From: Melioribacteraceae bacterium
Lineage (GTDB): Bacteria > Bacteroidota > Ignavibacteria > Ignavibacteriales > Melioribacteraceae
Length of the DNA stretch: 64,000 bases
Reading direction: 5' to 3'
Assembly: GCA_027030245.1 (NCBI GenBank)
Contig: JALVFE010000032.1
Location: forward strand, 62,001-126,000
The notes under the pieces are model-generated. The model saw only the letters and a program-made list of their open reading frames with translations. It did not search any database and was not told where the DNA came from. Positions 2,206-64,000 of this stretch are shown here, piece by piece. The position numbers and the translations under genes are program-made. Every line of letters starts with the position of its first letter. Positions within the stretch are counted from its first letter, which is position 1.

Positions 2206-4590
2206 TTATGATTTATTTGCGGAAACAAATTTAATCGAGAAAACCGTGCCGCCGCCTTTACTGCTTTCCACCGTAATTTCGGCTTTATTCAAATCGCAAT
2301 ATTCTTTCACAAGGGAAAGTCCCAGACCGCTTCCCTCGAAACTTCTTGTGTAGCCTTGCTCTTCTTGTCTGAAAGGATGGAACAAATCGGGAAGGAATTC
2401 TTCCGATATTCCGATTCCGGTATCAATCACATTAACGATTAGAAAATCATTTTGTGTGTTGAGAACAATTTCGATTTTTCCTTCCGGCGTAAACTTAAAT
2501 GCGTTATCCAAAAGATTGATGAAAATTTGTTCAACTGAGTATTTATCGGCGTAAATGAATGTATCGTCCGTCGCTTTTGTAAGGTTGAATTCGATGTTCG
2601 ATTCTTTCGCTTTGTATTTGTTTTCAAGGTAAAGCTTTTCAAGGATTTCGGAATAAAGGTCGAACGTTTCCTTTTTGGGTTTGTAACTGCCGGTTTGCAG
2701 TTCAGACATATTCAAAATCAAATCGATTGTTCTAATCAATCTATCGCTTGCACGGTTGATAATTTTGAAACTGGTATTCAGATCATCGTCTAAATTTTCA
2801 CCCAGTTGAAGTTTAATTAAGCTTATAAAGTTCAAAATATTATTAATCGGAGTTCTGATTTCATGAGAGATTTGAGCAAGGAATTCGGATTTTAATCTTA
2901 CCGATTTTTCCGATTCGTTTAGCGCTTCTATAAGTCGCTCTTCGTAATTTAATCTTTGGATAGATGAGCTGATTGACTCGGCAGCCGTTTGAAGAGCTTC
3001 TTCCTCCGATTTTGTCCACACCCGGTTTGTGGAAGAATCGTGCATCCCGATTCCGCCCCAAAATTCGTTGTTTACAAAAATCGGAACGATTAGCAAGCTG
3101 ACAATTTTATTTTTCGACATAAATTTCTTTGCGCCTGCCGATGCGGTACCGATATGTTTCCTGAGAATTTTGTTTTTCATTAAAGTATCAACCCAATCTT
3201 CCAAACCGAGAGCGGTAAAATTGACTTTGTCGACGATGTGGCTGATATTGTCTTGCTTTAACCATTCCGCTTTTTTTATAAAGTACAGGTCACCGGTTCC
3301 GGATTCGCGATGATATTTGAAAATCCTGACTCTGTCGATATTTAATGTATTGCCGAGTACTTTACAAACATCGTTTAGCTGGGACGACCAATTAATCGGT
3401 TTCAGCAAAATTTCGGATATCGATTTTAACGCAGAAAGGATTTTGGCATGCCGTTGCACTTCAATTTCCGCAATAACTTTCTCGGTGATATCTTCTACCG
3501 TTCCTTCGTAATAGCTTAACAAACCGTTTTCGTCCCAGAAGGCTTTGGAACTTTCCCTTATATAAATGATTTTTCCGTCGGGTCTTTTCCACGCGGTTTC
3601 AAAACCGTAAATGGTTCCTTCGGTTTCCAATATTTCTCTCAGTTTTTCTTTTACGGTCGGATCCACGTATCCGTCCGCTTCGTTTAATTCTTCAAGCGAA
3701 TCAAATCCGAGTATACTTAACAATTGGGGATTTGCAATAAGCATTTTGCCGTTTTTATCCGAGCGGTACATTCCAAGGGAAGAGTTTTCGAACAGGCTGC
3801 GGAATTTCCGTTCGCTTTCATATAGTTTCCGTTCCGTTTCTTTTTGAATCGAAATATCCGTGGCAGTGATAAGATAAGCGCCGGAGAAACCGGAAAAGTC
3901 TTCGTCTGTTTTGGTGATTGTCATTTTAACCGGAAAAGTATTTCCGGTTTTGGTAATCAAGAATGTTTCGCCTTCCCAAATATTTTCTTTTTCGTTCACT
4001 TGTTCCAATCTGTTCAATTCCCGCGAAAGTTTATTGCCTATCACGGTTTTTATTTCTTTGCCTGTTAATTCTTGGGAATCGTATTGCAATTTTTCGGCGG
4101 CGGATTTATTCAAAAACAAAATCTTTTTCTTTGAATCGGTGATTATAACAAGTTCTCTTATGTTTTGTAAAGCTTGAATTAATACCGGATCCGTTTCGTT
4201 AAGTTTGGGCAGCGCATTCGGAGAATTAATTGTAAACAAAAAACCGATAATATCATTTCCGTTTTGTTTAACGGGGTTTACGGTAATTTTAATTTTTTTA
4301 TCCGGCTTTTCCAAGTTTTTAAGAATCAAATTAACGGATTGGGTTTCCCCCGTTGAATTACATTTTTCCATTATTTTTTTTATTGATTCTTTCCCGGCTG
4401 AAGTTAAGCATTCGTCAATGCCCGCTTCGGTGGAAAGCTCCTTACCCGTTATTTTTACAGCGTTACTGTTGTAAAAAATTATTTTCCCTTCCTTGTCGGT
4501 TATTATTATCGGCAGTTTGATTTTTTTGTATGCAGGGAATAATTCTTCAATAACTCTTTCGATATTTTTATTTGATTTGTTCAAAATCAT
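2206..4590 (-). CDS. Multi-PAS, GAF sensor histidine kinase
   Basis: A 794-residue kinase with no membrane segment, so probably cytoplasmic. Domain order: PAS about 15-125, PAS about 137-250, PAS with PAC about 260-372 (ending GTVEDITEK), GAF about 385-545, a short coiled linker, HisKA with LAQISHEIRTP (phospho-acceptor H576), then HATPase with NLLDNAFKFTP (about 692), DTGIGIS (about 723) and GSGLGLS (about 753). It starts 7 bases after the lone receiver gene upstream, which suggests a two-gene operon and a kinase-receiver pair. The C-terminal region around QEEQGYTR and LVKEY closely resembles the kinase at 21385-22995, so the two are likely paralogues. Confidence 0.93.
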   Translation of the reverse strand: MILNKSNKNIERVIEELFPAYKKIKLPIIITDKEGKIIFYNSNAVKITGKELSTEAGIDECLTSAGKESIKKIMEKCNSTGETQSVNLILKNLEKPDKKIKITVNPVKQNGNDIIGFLFTINSPNALPKLNETDPVLIQALQNIRELVIITDSKKKILFLNKSAAEKLQYDSQELTGKEIKTVIGNKLSRELNRLEQVNEKENIWEGETFLITKTGNTFPVKMTITKTDEDFSGFSGAYLITATDISIQKETERKLYESERKFRSLFENSSLGMYRSDKNGKMLIANPQLLSILGFDSLEELNEADGYVDPTVKEKLREILETEGTIYGFETAWKRPDGKIIYIRESSKAFWDENGLLSYYEGTVEDITEKVIAEIEVQRHAKILSALKSISEILLKPINWSSQLNDVCKVLGNTLNIDRVRIFKYHRESGTGDLYFIKKAEWLKQDNISHIVDKVNFTALGLEDWVDTLMKNKILRKHIGTASAGAKKFMSKNKIVSLLIVPIFVNNEFWGGIGMHDSSTNRVWTKSEEEALQTAAESISSSIQRLNYEERLIEALNESEKSVRLKSEFLAQISHEIRTPINNILNFISLIKLQLGENLDDDLNTSFKIINRASDRLIRTIDLILNMSELQTGSYKPKKETFDLYSEILEKLYLENKYKAKESNIEFNLTKATDDTFIYADKYSVEQIFINLLDNAFKFTPEGKIEIVLNTQNDFLIVNVIDTGIGISEEFLPDLFHPFRQEEQGYTRSFEGSGLGLSLVKEYCDLNKAEITVESSKGGGTVFSIKFVSANKS

Positions 4591-43151: not shown

Positions 43152-43893
43152 AAAGTTAATACCAAAATCAATTTCAGACATTTAAAATAGTTATTTCAAT
43201 TGTGGAAAGATCACTTAGGCTGTCTCAAAGCTTAAAAATCGTCATCCCCCGACTATACGGGGAATTATCTGCAAACTGTCATTCCGAACTTGTTTCGGAA
43301 TCTAAAATGAACTCGTAATTTAATTGGGATATTAAAACAATCCACCGTGGGTGGACAAGATGACAGCCCGTATGGACCTTGGCAGCCGTGGGAACGCCCC
43401 AACCGCAAATTCGTAGGGGACGCAAAGTTTGCGTCCCCTACAATTAAACCAACCAGGCTTTGTAATATTCCCTGCCGTCGAGGCCCACGCATCGACGTGT
43501 TAAATGCTAAATTATTAATTTGCTGTTAATGGCTAAGTGATATTACAATAAAATTTTCCGCTGGTGGAAAAAACCACTTCTTTCCACAAAAAAAGTTTAA
43601 TATTTAATCAAGTTCAATCCGGAAGAGTTAAATATATTTGTATCTTAGTAATGCCGGGGAATGGAGTTCGGAAACAGTGGATAGTATCATTTAACCTTAA
43701 CCGGGACAAGCCGTGCCATGTCCCTACAGCTCTTGCGAAAGGAATGAATTTGCAGAAATATGAAAAAGCAACAAAATAAAGCGGTATATTCAGCTCTTCA
43801 ACACACGCCAACTACACGGATTTATCCGTGGATCACTTAAGCATAAAAAGATATATCCGAACCGTTTCAACGGTTTTTACGACGGAAAAATAA
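43152..43893. repeat. Non-coding stretch rich in short palindromes (REP-like), left part
   Basis: No protein gene is supported. It contains several hairpin families: CCCCG/CGGGG at 43247-43262, ATTCCGAA/TTCGGAAT at 43281-43301, a 29-base near-perfect palindrome at 43413-43441 (GTAGGGGACGCAAA mirrored), a degenerate copy of the GTGGAAA...TTTCCAC hairpin near 43565-43590, a weak copy of the GGGACAAGG hairpin near 43703-43724, and a CACGGAT/ATCCGTG hairpin near 43820. The last two motifs recur beside the transposase copies below. Confidence 0.7.
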
Positions 43894-43941
43894 ATGTCGC
43901 ATTCATTAGCAAAAAAATGTTTTATCAGTGGAAACCGATGA
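43894..43941 (+). mobile_element. Miniature derivative of the IS200-type element (core deleted)
   Basis: The sequence starts as the transposase gene (ATG TCG CAT TCA TTA GCA) but jumps after seven codons to the end of that gene (TTT ATC AGT GGA AAC CGA TGA). It keeps one open frame of 15 codons plus the stop. The left hairpin CCGTTTCAACGG lies just upstream and the right hairpins lie just downstream, the same as in the full copies. It therefore keeps both ends and could be moved in trans. Confidence 0.75.
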
Positions 43942-44236
43942 ATCGGTTTCTTTCTTTACGGTTTGCGTTTCTTAGCCCGCGACTGAAGTCGCGGGCTTCA
44001 ATCTGTTGGTAGAAATATATGAAACACGAATATATCAGCTCATGGATCAATCTATAGGCACGTTAAGCGGAAGCAAAGGTAACATAACTATGTCTAAAAT
44101 TTATCATTCCCTGGTGGAAAGGACCACTCCTTTCCACAAAAAAAGTTTAATATTTAATTGTGTCCTGAAAATACCAAGATAAAAAACTACGGCATTAGTA
44201 AATAGCATCAAATAATCTTTCGGGACAAGGCGTGCT
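43918..44236. repeat. Long dispersed repeat, copy A
   Basis: About 320 bases nearly identical to 48517-48836. It starts at the last codons of the transposase, includes the GAAACCGAT/ATCGGTTTC and AGCCCGCGACT/AGTCGCGGGCT hairpins, the GTGGAAAGGA/TCCTTTCCAC hairpin, and ends in a GGGACAAGGCGTGC hairpin half. Here it follows the miniature element; at 48.5 kb it follows a full copy. Confidence 0.85.
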
Positions 44237-44526
44237 TTATCCATACACCTCTTGCAGAGAAAACGATTCTGCGGTAATAAGAATAGCATTAAAATGGTGG
44301 GGTATATTCAGCTTTTCAACACAACCGCATAAACGATGTTAATTAAATTGTAAAAATTTATTTAATTTAGTAACTTATAATTATAATATTATTTTAGTTC
44401 AGCGAATAAAGTCTATTATCATTTTCTGCAGAAAGCCAACCCCACGGATTCATGCGTGGGTTAGTGAATAAGCATAAAAAAAGATAAACCGGAACCGTTT
44501 CAACGGTTTTTATGACGGAAAAATAA
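44237..44526. repeat. Left flank of the first IS200-type copy
   Basis: About 290 bases with no gene. It holds an AT-rich stretch (44330-44400) and, near the gene, CCCACG...CGTGGG at about 44444-44461 and CCGTTTCAACGG at about 44495-44510, just before the transposase ATG. These match the left flanks at 43.82 kb and 48.02 kb. Confidence 0.6.
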
Positions 44527-44970
44527 ATGTCGCATTCGTTAGCTAAAATATGGATTCATCTTATATTCGGTACAAAAAACCGATTCCCGATGATCAATGC
44601 TTCTTTTGAAAAACAATTATACTCACATATTAAAAATCTGCTAGAAAAAGATTTTAAATCTAAGGTTGAAATAATCAACGGAACAGCTGATCACATTCAT
44701 ATTCTTTTGCTTCAAAACCAAAATCACTCGATTGCTGAATTAACTAAGAACATAAAGGGGAATTCATCCCATTGGATAAATCAAAATAATTTTATAAAAG
44801 GAAAATTTGCTTGGCAGACAGGTTACGGAGCTTTTTCGGTTAGCGAATCAATGGTTGGCAAGGTTCGGAATTATATCAAAAATCAGAAAGAACATCACAG
44901 AAAAATCAGTTTTGCGGAGGAATACAAAAGATTTGAGGAGAAATATGGTATTAGCGGTGGAAACCGATGA
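44527..44970 (+). mobile_element. tnpA: IS200-type / REP-associated tyrosine (Y1) transposase, copy 1
   Basis: A 147-residue single-strand HUH transposase. The HUH motif lies in DHIHILLLQ (His-x-His), and the catalytic Tyr is likely in KVRNYIKNQKEHH. LIFGTKNRFPMI and KNIKGNSSHWIN match the Y1_Tnp family. No accessory TnpB gene is nearby. Flanked by short hairpins that such enzymes recognise. Almost identical to copy 2 at 48099-48542. Confidence 0.92.
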
Positions 44971-45292
44971 ATCGGTTTCTTTCTTTGTGGTTTGTATTTC
45001 TTAGCCCGCGACTAAAGTCGCGAGCTTCAATCTTGAAAGGTTTAACGCTTAATCAAGCTAAAAGGGGAAAAGTTAAATATTTAATTGTACCCCAGTAATA
45101 TCGGAGTATGAACCCCAGCGATAATGCATTGTATATAAAGTAATAGCTTTAATATTTCATATCACAATGTAATGGTTGTATGTGTTTAATATTCCATTAA
45201 CAACTTTAAAAGATTTTCCATATATTACAAAAACAGGATTGACCAATAAATTACATAATAAATTTTTGTAATAACAAACTTCAGGAGGAGTT
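44971..45292. repeat. Right flank of copy 1 and upstream region of the lipoprotein gene
   Basis: 44971-45030 holds the right-end hairpins (ATCGGTTTC arm, and CGCGACTAAAGTCGCG). A decayed GTTAAATATTTAATTG segment like the other flanks follows near 45070-45090, then AT-rich sequence with a strong AGGAGGAG site at 45283-45290. No gene seen. Confidence 0.6.
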
Positions 45293-47952: not shown

Positions 47953-48098
47953 TATCAAATGACCACACTAGGGGACAAGGCATGCCTTGTCCCTACACTT
48001 CTCACGAAGAAAAGCCAACCACACGGATTTATCCGTGGATCACTTAAGCATAAAAAGATATACCCGAACCGTTTCAACGGTTTTTATAGAGAAAATAA
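47953..48098. repeat. Left flank of the second IS200-type copy with GGGACAAGG palindrome
   Basis: 47972-47993 is a perfect 22-base palindrome, GGGACAAGGCA and its complement. Then CACGGAT/ATCCGTG near 48021-48036 and CCGTTTCAACGG near 48067-48081 precede the transposase ATG. These are the same left-end features as at the other two copies. Confidence 0.8.
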
Positions 48099-48542
48099 AT
48101 GCCGCATTCGTTAGCTAAAATATGGATTCATCTTATATTCGGTACGAAAAACCGGTTCCCGATGATCAATGCTTCTTTTGAAAAACAATTATACTCACAT
48201 ATTAAAAATCTGCTAGAAAAAGATTTTAAATCTAAGGTTGAAATAATCAACGGAACAGCCGATCACATTCATATTCTTTTGCTTCAAAACCAAAATCACT
48301 CGATTGCTGAATTAACCAAGAATATAAAAGGGAATTCTTCCTATTGGATAAATCAAAACAACTTTATAAAAGGAAAATTTGCTTGGCAGACAGGTTACGG
48401 AGCTTTTTCGGTTAGTGAATCAATGGTTGGCAAGGTTCGGAATTATATCAAAAATCAGAAGGAACATCACAGAAAAATCAGTTTTGCGGAGGAATACAGA
48501 AGGTTTGAGGAGAAATATGGTTTTATCGGTGGAAACCGATGA
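48099..48542 (+). mobile_element. tnpA: IS200-type / REP-associated tyrosine (Y1) transposase, copy 2
   Basis: A 147-residue protein that differs from copy 1 at only a few residues (second residue P for S, SSYW for SSHW, EYRRF for EYKRF, YGFIGG for YGISGG). Same HUH and Tyr motifs. The two copies bracket the lipoprotein and protease genes about 3.6 kb apart in the same direction. Recent duplication is the simplest reading. Confidence 0.92.
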
Positions 48543-48836
48543 ATCGGTTTCTTTTTTTCGGTTTGTGTTCCTGGCCCGCGACTGAAGTCGCGGGCTTCAA
48601 TCTGTTGGTAGAAATATATGAACCACGAATATATCAGCTCATGGATCAATCTATAGGCACGTTAAGCGGAAGCAAAGGTAACATAACTATGTCTAAAATT
48701 TATCATTCCCTGGTGGAAAGGACCACTCCTTTCCACAAAAAAAGTTTAATATTTAATTGTGTCCTGAAAATACCAAGATAAAAAAACTACGGCATTAGTA
48801 AATAGCATCAAATAATCTTTCGGGACAAGGCGTGCC
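48517..48836. repeat. Long dispersed repeat, copy B
   Basis: Matches 43918-44236 almost base for base, including the same hairpins in the same order, ending in GGGACAAGGCGTGCCTTGTC. It is the right flank of transposase copy 2, so copy A belongs with the miniature element. The remaining 48837-48906 is AT-rich and leads to the iorA start. Confidence 0.85.
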
Positions 48837-48906
48837 TTGTCACTATACATAATGATAAAAATTTTTTATTTTTAGGACATAGATATCCACAAATATAAAA
48901 CGTATT

Positions 48907-62094: not shown

Positions 62095-64000
62095 ATGACA
62101 AATGAAAATGCCAAAACATTTTTAAGCTTTTTAATGATGTTTATTATTTTCTTTATGACAAGTACTATATTTGCCGATGAAGATATCGAAGTTAAGGGAT
62201 ATGTCACCGAAATCGGGGATAATTATTTCGTACTTCAGAACTACAAATTCTATGTTGACTCATCAACAGAGTTTGAAGGAAATGATGACTCCAACTTCAA
62301 CTTTTCGTCACTTCGTGTAAATGACTATGTTAAAGTCAAAGGCAAGCTATTGTCCGCTGGAAATTATCTTGCAGTTTCGGTTGAACTGGAAGACAATCAT
62401 GATAATGATGACAAAGATGAATTAGAACTTAAAGGATATGTAACTGAAATCGGGGATAATTATTTCGTACTTCAGAACTACAAATTCTACGTTGACTCAT
62501 CAACAGAGTTTGAAGGAAATGATGACTCCAATTTCAACTTTTCGTCACTTCGCGTAAATGACTTTGTCAAAGTCAAAGGCAAACTATTATCCGATGGAAA
62601 TTATCTTGCAGTTTCGGTAAAACTGAAAGACATCCATGATGACGAATTTGAAATTGAAGGAATTGTTGATGGTGTCGGTAACAATCAAATAACGGTATCC
62701 GGCTTTCTATTTTATATCACACCCAATACCAAGTTCAAAGCTGAAGATAATTCGCATATTGATTTTTCGGACATCTCAACAGGAATGCATGTGAAAATTA
62801 AGGGATTTAATAATTCCGATAATTCTTACACAGCTACAAAAGTTAAAGTAAAAGATTTGTATGATGAGAACGAAATGGAAATTTCCGGAGTAATCTCGGA
62901 AATCGGTACAAATACTTTTAAAGTTTCAGGAATGCAGTTTTATGTTAATAACTCTACAATCATTAAACATCACTCGGACTTACTACTTCCTTTTAGCTCG
63001 CTTACAGTTGGTATGTTAGTAGAAGTGAAAGCAATTACACAAAATAACGGCTCATTACTTGCTACAAAGGTAAAAATAGAAGACAACCATGATTTAGATG
63101 AAGAAATTGAAATCACCGCACAAATCGAAAATATTAACAATCTTTTTATTACGGTAGGTGGCATAACATTTAAGATCGACTCTTATACGGAAATACTTGA
63201 CGACAACAGTTTTCCAGTTCCGTTTTCTTCGCTTCAACAAGGAATGTTAGTTAAAGTTAAAGGTTATAGACAGACCGACGGAAGTGTGTTGGCGGTAAAA
63301 ATCAAAATAGAAGATTTCTTTAGAGACGATTTAGAACTGAAAGGAAGAATTGAAGCATTGGGAAATGATTTGATTACAGTTGCCGGTAAAACTTTCTCCG
63401 TAAACCAACAGACTTTGGTATTTGATCATAATCAAAATCCAATTCCGTTTTCTTCCCTTTCTGTAGGATTAATTGTAGAAATAAAAGGAAAAACAAATTC
63501 ATCCGGAAATCTAACCGCAGTAAAAATTAAAATTGAAGACGAGGAAGATCTGGAATTATACGGATCAATCACGGCATTATTCGATAACCGTTTTGAAGTT
63601 GGGAACAATATAATCTTAGTAAACGAAAATACCGTTGTTTTGAATTATCAAGCTCAAGTCATCAACTATTCCGATTTAAACGTTGGAATGATGGTGGAAG
63701 TTAAAATGACTAAAAATGCCGACGGTTCATTTATGGCACTTCGCATCAAGATAGAGAACAGTCCCGGCATGTCAAAAATTCACGGGTTAGTTGATGATAA
63801 TTCAAACGGTTTTATAACGGTTGCATTAACCCGCTTTGGATTAAATTCGAATGAGACAGTACTCAGCGCCAATTATAAACGTATTAATATTTCCGATGTA
63901 AAAAAGGGAGATGAAGTTATTTTATGGGCGGAGAAAAATCAGAACGGGAACAAACAAGTTATACAAATCCAAAAAATTAATGACTCGATTACCGGAGTTG
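62095..64000 (+). CDS. Exported protein of tandem DUF5666 repeats, cut by window edge
   Basis: Open from the ATG at 62095 (after AGGAGGA) to the window edge, about 635 residues so far, with no stop. A signal peptide (hydrophobic 11-27, ending IFA) is followed by eight repeats of about 75 residues, the last partial, each with the pattern ELKGxVxxIGxNxFxVxxxxFxVxxxTxF...FSSLxxGxxVxVKGxxxxxGxxxAxxVKxED. The first two repeats are nearly identical in DNA, so they duplicated recently. DUF5666 is a small beta-barrel of unknown function found in exported proteins. A role as an envelope or surface protein is inferred. Confidence 0.85.
   Translation, partial: MTNENAKTFLSFLMMFIIFFMTSTIFADEDIEVKGYVTEIGDNYFVLQNYKFYVDSSTEFEGNDDSNFNFSSLRVNDYVKVKGKLLSAGNYLAVSVELEDNHDNDDKDELELKGYVTEIGDNYFVLQNYKFYVDSSTEFEGNDDSNFNFSSLRVNDFVKVKGKLLSDGNYLAVSVKLKDIHDDEFEIEGIVDGVGNNQITVSGFLFYITPNTKFKAEDNSHIDFSDISTGMHVKIKGFNNSDNSYTATKVKVKDLYDENEMEISGVISEIGTNTFKVSGMQFYVNNSTIIKHHSDLLLPFSSLTVGMLVEVKAITQNNGSLLATKVKIEDNHDLDEEIEITAQIENINNLFITVGGITFKIDSYTEILDDNSFPVPFSSLQQGMLVKVKGYRQTDGSVLAVKIKIEDFFRDDLELKGRIEALGNDLITVAGKTFSVNQQTLVFDHNQNPIPFSSLSVGLIVEIKGKTNSSGNLTAVKIKIEDEEDLELYGSITALFDNRFEVGNNIILVNENTVVLNYQAQVINYSDLNVGMMVEVKMTKNADGSFMALRIKIENSPGMSKIHGLVDDNSNGFITVALTRFGLNSNETVLSANYKRINISDVKKGDEVILWAEKNQNGNKQVIQIQKINDSITGV

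Follow-up and report, generated by a model that had tools for sequence, protein, structure and literature searches.

What is a 15-codon open reading frame that begins and ends like a transposase gene, and how did it come to lie in a cluster of hairpins near two intact copies of that gene? The frame occupies positions 43894-43941 of the window, by which we mean the whole 64,000-nucleotide stretch analysed here (from contig JALVFE010000032.1 of a Melioribacteraceae bacterium), and reads from ATG to TGA (MSHSLAKKCFISGNR).

The frame lies between the hairpins of a transposase element

The initial annotation described the frame as the first codons of a transposase gene joined to its last codons between left and right hairpins. 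This stands. When the locus was aligned with the two full copies of the element (tnpA at 44527-44970 and 48099-48542), the interior of tnpA was absent, and folding placed two hairpins on either side. In both full copies the same four hairpins, B, C, D and E, bracket in the same order an intact gene for a 147-amino-acid transposase, the sole long open reading frame within the B-to-E unit. The features are listed below, with the shortened copies called minis and identities given as pairwise means over 12 copies.

43703-43724, no strand assigned: palindrome A, of GGGACAAG..CTTGTCCC type, often found left of a mini; a separate repeat outside the four-hairpin unit (read by eye)
43814-43831, plus strand: hairpin B, outer left (folding; 93% identity)
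43860-43875, plus strand: hairpin C, inner left, immediately 5' of the former tnpA start (folding; 94% identity)
43894-43914, plus strand: relic of the first 7 tnpA codons (alignment with the full copies; 80% identity up to the junction)
43915-43941, plus strand: relic of the last 8 tnpA codons and the stop, with the junction at a degenerate AAATATGG (alignment; 61% identity before hairpin D)
43931-43950, plus strand: hairpin D, inner right, containing the tnpA stop codon (folding; 94% identity)
43976-43995, plus strand: hairpin E, outer right (folding; 92% identity)
44441-45024, plus strand: full copy 1, with B, C, tnpA, D and E (PF01797, 2.3e-24)
48021-48594, plus strand: full copy 2, with B, C, tnpA, D and E (PF01797, 3.1e-24)

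The 189-nt unit from 43812 to 44000 folds at -36.6 kcal/mol (DNA parameters); 200 shuffles averaged -20.0 (z -5.5), and none was as low. In the 12-copy comparison, for which L012 and the divergent L011 were placed by hand, identity is 80% in the D-E spacer, 67% between C and the ATG and 54% in the B-C spacer. The start relic is thus no more worn than one of the spacers. Hairpin B starts with AACCCC or a near variant throughout this alignment. Two-sided base-pair changes occur at 3 of 30 pairs, a slight covariation over the 12 copies.

Palindromes resembling A are also aligned to the left of other mini copies. Palindromes of GGGACAAGGC..GCCTTGTCCC type, at 43703-43724, 47972-47993 and 48822-48843 in the window, recur beside the minis and apparently form a separate repeat family. 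The window also holds, at 62172-62645, a tandem pair of 237-bp units that are 89% alike.

The transposase fits TnpA subclass 1.2

TnpA carries the motifs DHIH, WQ and YIKNQKEHH, so that both the HUH motif and the tyrosine are intact, and its nearest named relatives are from Melioribacteraceae MAGs. The element had been labelled RAYT/IS200. The IS200 half of that label holds, with an NCBIfam IS200 score of 62.7 against a cut-off of 55. The RAYT half is ruled out by the Y...Q..HH motif and by the score for the NCBIfam REP-transposase model (REP_Tyr_transpos), 18.8 against a cut-off of 80.

In the classification of Quentin et al. (2018; PMC6006769, Table 1), subclass 1.2 is defined by DH[IV]H, WQ, Y---Q--HH and a length of ~148 amino acids. 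Judged by its motifs, its 147 residues and its low copy number (two close copies and one 46% identical relative in a protein search of its own genome), the window transposase fits this subclass of class 1 Y1/HUH enzymes. That paper describes subclass 1.2 as low in copy number, scored 'no' for REP, as a rule devoid of terminal hairpins and showing no IS properties, whereas the element here has terminal hairpins and non-autonomous derivatives. Within the literature searched (titles and abstract openings, with subscription papers and supplements outside), neither ends nor minis are described for subclass 1.2. The 46% identical relative, a second Y1 transposase at G000:C10:2479-2901 (L024), is flanked by other palindromes (CACTCCTACGGAGTG).

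The junction falls on a short repeat

The 8-mer AAATATGG occurs at CDS offsets 19 and 414 in both full tnpA genes, in different frames. Loss of one AAATATGG with the intervening stretch removes 395 bp, which is not a multiple of 3. The product predicted for such a deletion in full copy 1 is an out-of-frame peptide, MSHSLAKIWY followed by a stop, and this is identical to the peptide of minis L005 and L010. At the level of sequence, this shows that tnpA lost its interior between the two AAATATGG copies and that its start was thereby fused out of frame to its end. A shared 8-mer arose between shuffled gene ends in 101 and 78 of 2000 shuffles and is only mildly unusual, so the repeat alone is weak evidence; the argument is that the junction falls on AAATATGG.

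The earlier description of the deletion as precise and in-frame therefore has to be revised. Of the 12 copies that retain codons, three lack the ATG and eight run into a stop after 8-10 codons. The full 15 are read in the window copy alone, through a private extra one-base loss that opens the frame; the 'in-frame' join is a coincidence. Selection for an in-frame product, or a microprotein, was accordingly rejected, the 15-codon frame not being a family feature. Another part of the proposal, a MITE-like non-autonomous element made by internal deletion, is borne out, with both hairpin ends present and minis outnumbering full copies 15 to 2. Descent of the minis as non-autonomous derivatives through a repeat-mediated deletion is well supported.

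Minis are numerous in one genome

We searched the organism's own genome (3.8 Mb, 40 contigs) with a 126-nt query spanning the junction and found 12 places, each covering at least query positions 20-125. A covariance model of the D-E right end gave 18 matches at E <= 0.01, namely the two full genes, the 12 codon-bearing minis, two codon-less minis, one degenerate mini and one weak match. The minis of contigs C15 and C40 lack codon relics, and that of C33 additionally lacks hairpin D. The weak match (E 0.006) falls on the opposite strand, in the left arm of mini L004, and to this extent the ends of the mini are weakly related in inverted orientation. The model was built from 15 own-genome sequences, which match by construction; C40, C33 and the L004 left arm were absent from its training sequences. 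No right end was found outside tnpA or a mini at E <= 0.01 among the 150 of 3806 first-look candidates that were scored, a sampling in which very weak ends could be missed. This genome-wide search for other sites with both hairpin ends thus returned ~15 minis for two full copies: the window mini is not a sole copy, and its ends align with those of the full elements.

Full-length minis are confined to this genome among the 58 searched. The 57 relatives gave only partial matches, in 11 genomes, none longer than 69 of the 211 nt (best E 3.8e-7). Longer matches in seven genomes reached via named loci are flanks of their own tnpA genes, and a single 22-nt match in L156 falls in a three-hairpin cluster.

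Hairpins recur at related loci

To what extent related genes have similar ends was assessed at 61 of 82 tnpA loci, after dropping 14 without a clean open reading frame, four with short ones, one duplicate protein and two with short flanks. Summed hairpins (stems >= 7) were taken as significant when no more than 5 of 100 shuffles matched or exceeded them. On this basis hairpins are significant upstream at 32 of the 61 loci, downstream at 39 and on neither side at 17, these last including several MANTYTQ-type genes and L072 (50% identity). The Y---Q--HH motif is present at 58 of the 61, the exceptions being L072, L126 and L146. Among the 12 loci at >= 54% identity, both window copies counted, 10 pass upstream and all 12 downstream. 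The recurring plan in this group has a small hairpin at or across the stop codon, followed ~30 bases past the codon by a longer one. Three-hairpin units were also observed, at L039, L051, L040, L043, L046, L052, L054, L060, L062 and L156, in genomes of the same taxonomic order or in ones reached via named relatives; several have outer CAAGTTGACC / GGTCAACTTG arms and could close a cloverleaf.

A parallel case is found in Flavobacterium. The palindrome adjoining tnpA there (CCTCCAGCTAAAGCTGGAGG) is present in 8 of 10 genomes (up to 2 mismatches) and forms, within two of the genomes, six pairs 100-103 bases apart. Read by eye, each of these six pairs is a B-C-D-E unit in which the right half is similar to the sequence downstream of tnpA in those genomes; ~13 bases separate C from D, and no codon relic is visible there. 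A search of 39 other genomes found the unit again in at least 6, a lower bound since 10 candidates were scored per genome. One intergenic site, presumably comEC-lpxB (gene names recognised by eye), has a mini in one Flavobacterium species and none in another.

Movement, decay and recombination

IS608-type TnpA recognises subterminal hairpins as single-stranded DNA and moves the element. Movement of the minis in trans by the TnpA of the full copies is plausible: the ends are shared, the enzyme has intact motifs and Flavobacterium offers a parallel, and the 57 relatives hold only partial mini matches. IS200-type insertion creates no target-site duplication and takes place 3' of a short target; pairwise flank comparison of the own-genome copies defined neither a target-site rule nor a direct target duplication. 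Two flank searches found no exact empty site for the own-genome copies. One flank gene occurs in a congener without the mini, with its neighbour gene on another contig.

We consider it probable that the frame marks a copy of a non-autonomous element with four hairpins, which derives from a subclass 1.2 tnpA element and is moved by TnpA, with recombination also contributing. The sequences show the first two steps: the tnpA interior was lost between two AAATATGG repeats, leaving start and end joined out of frame, and the joined copies, a few of them trimmed further, lie between genes at ~15 places, with the hairpins kept at 92-94%. In a third step, TnpA from the two intact copies would recognise the hairpin pairs as single-stranded DNA and move the element. 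Duplication and recombination also copied minis together with their flanks.

Two other accounts explain part of the same evidence. Under the first, full elements moved, and each later lost its interior at AAATATGG in place, so that minis never move. This would account for the repeat at the join, and it accords with a tree in which the minis are not monophyletic and the window mini clusters with full copy 2 (98/97), with which it has ~280 bp of right flank in common (218 nt at 99%, 68 nt at 93%). The tree gives no support for a single origin of the 12 minis, nor does it argue against one, recombination being evident among them; it calls for either repeated deletion at one place or recombination, and either can produce the pattern. 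Decay in place would, however, require ~12 like deletions with only 2 full copies surviving, and it is at odds with the three copies that are trimmed differently and with the six Flavobacterium minis without codon relics, whose unit recurs many times. We regard it as unlikely.

Under the second, the minis are BIME-like mosaics copied without a transposase when similar intergenic tails undergo homologous recombination, duplication or conversion. Most copies do share a left or a right flank, one of a few types, with another copy, and several lie 3' of T9SS-type gene ends. A left flank of up to ~240 bases is common to L001, L002, L008 and L011, a T9SS-type gene tail of up to ~340 bases to L003, L005, L009, L010, L012 and full copy 2, and a right flank of ~200 bases to L002 and L003; L007 and L010 are alike over ~850 bases in all. 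So many copies with common flanks imply that recombination also took part. Passive spread as the whole explanation is nevertheless improbable, because many pairs (L001-L004, L002-L004, L006-L010 and L008-L009, for instance) are alike only in the unit or in the unit and some 10-25 bases, the nearest open reading frames differ, and right ends at E <= 0.01 occur, among the candidates scored, only with tnpA or a mini.

A cluster of hairpins kept as a transcript end or for mRNA stability, rather than a mobile element, would fit the position of the minis: none of the 12 codon-bearing copies overlaps an open reading frame of >= 100 amino acids, L004 and L012 lie 32 and 52 bases 3' of a gene end, and a T-rich stretch directly follows hairpin D in the window copy. 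Since these hairpins also bracket tnpA in the same order, and relic codons are needless for a terminator, we think this very improbable. That the 15-codon frame encodes a functional small protein, as its start and stop and the 80% conserved start relic might suggest, deserves practically no credence when 11 of the 12 copies lack the frame through early stops or a missing ATG.

A restriction gene as a probable earlier seat of tnpA

Remnants of a type ISP restriction gene trail two of the copies in the window.

44042-44110, plus strand: leader and first codons (ATG 44090) of the ISP specificity half-gene, the rest lost (alignment; local scores against L097-L099)
48641-48709, plus strand: like ISP leader and first codons, 3' of full copy 2 (BLAST against L097 and L098)

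The first scores 55, 58 and 46 against L097, L098 and L099, where the highest of 1000 shuffles reached 29, 29 and 32. For the second, BLAST over 48641-48707 gave 3.4e-07 with L097 and 2.8e-08 with L098. At L097 and L098 (90 and 91% protein identity) a type ISP gene is split into two open halves, with the tnpA element between them. At L099 (86%) tnpA is at the ISP split, with the first half itself broken in two frames; at L100 (73%) there is a piece of the first half only, and the second half has stops. The halves were confirmed singly for L098, L099 and L100. In 14 other genomes the ISP match is in one open frame of 1020-1105 amino acids, and several of these read straight through the split point. 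Neither ISP half was found in the window's genome. With leader and first codons trailing both the window mini and full copy 2, the split type ISP gene was probably an earlier seat of tnpA.

The ISP gene is split at one inter-domain point, with tnpA there at four loci (L097-L100) and both halves open at two. The same split point is occupied by a DUF559 gene in L158 and by a Bro-N gene in L168. L159 has a Bro-N gene 5' of the second half, and the stretch retrieved there contains no first half.

Other defence genes adjoin related tnpA genes. A scan of the 84 nearest open reading frames of 48 loci, leaving out L145-L147, counted Cas1 (6 members), Cas9-type domains (5) and type ISP in aggregate; the loci came from a pattern-based scan, so these fractions are not frequencies. 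Confirmed singly were tnpA between Cas9 (by its domains) and Cas1 at L113, and between Cas1 and Cas2 at L101:3001-3444 in a Bacteroidetes MAG. Five Flavobacterium loci (L109, L110, L112, L113 and L114) have tnpA near 2960-3440, apparently between cas9 and cas1, with L109, L110, L112 and L114 placed by the position and length of their open reading frames. Ten other neighbours compared singly with PADLOC gave no match at 1e-10. The loci in defence operons are related to one another and represent about three placements, not ten independent ones. In the same titles and abstract openings as above (again with subscription papers and supplements outside), no subclass 1.2 tnpA is described in a cas operon; IS982 and IS256 genes, of another class, are reported in a type II-C locus (PMC10309648).

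Comparison with known elements

The ends of IS608 are hairpins recognised in single-stranded form, one per end, and the element carries a tnpB gene. The window element has a related Y1 transposase (a weak sequence match to the TnpA of ISHp608, IS200/IS605 family, 1.8e-05), but two hairpins per end, with tnpA as its only long open reading frame.

The minis resemble the palindrome-associated transposable elements (PATEs) of Haloquadratum, which are related to IS605-type elements, have near-terminal palindromes as in a TnpA-type element, are too short to code and in some cases arose by deletion between direct repeats, according to the account in PMC3119063. As in PATEs and IS200-type MITEs, the minis share their terminal hairpins with a coding element of their own genome, lack a transposase gene and bear a repeat-mediated internal deletion. 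The repeats of PATEs are given there as 19-22 bp and are or resemble palindromes, whereas here an 8-mer inside the gene was used, codons are kept on both sides of the junction and each end has two hairpins.

An origin of REPINs from the palindromes on either side of an IS200-like element has been proposed (PMC3116915). Like REPINs and BIMEs as presented in PMC3116915 and PMC2817692, the minis are intergenic inverted palindromes matching those that flank a low-copy Y1 transposase gene. Two inverted REPs around a short spacer are clear in Flavobacterium, where one mini, at G069:C71, aligns with its own reverse strand (81% over 133 nt, E 5.8e-25), and weak in the window's own genome (the L004 arm). 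The transposase here differs in being of class 1 (Y...Q..HH) and not of the class 2 RAYT Y...NP type. The unit has no GTAG head, and it comprises four hairpins in ~15 copies, with relic codons that make its descent visible.

Precedents for such derivatives thus exist in the PATEs (PMC3119063) and in the REPIN hypothesis (PMC3116915), as these are set out in the two papers, and the origin of the present minis is unusually legible. The minis retain the first and last codons of the lost gene, and codon-less versions occur alongside them in this genome, which allows the route to be followed. That REP-type units come from the ends of IS200-like elements is the hypothesis published in PMC3116915. 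More widely, and with somewhat less than even confidence, we suggest that subclass 1.2 transposases may drive a separate REPIN-like four-hairpin system in Ignavibacteria, Bacteroidota and perhaps Cloacimonadota. Their genes would ride as passengers in defence operons (type ISP, cas9-cas1, cas1-cas2), and the minis with fossil codons would be intermediates between the full element and a REPIN-like unit. The finding points to subclass 1.2 genes inside some CRISPR-Cas and restriction operons, and it gives this subclass, which was without described ends, a candidate substrate whose binding and cutting are directly testable.
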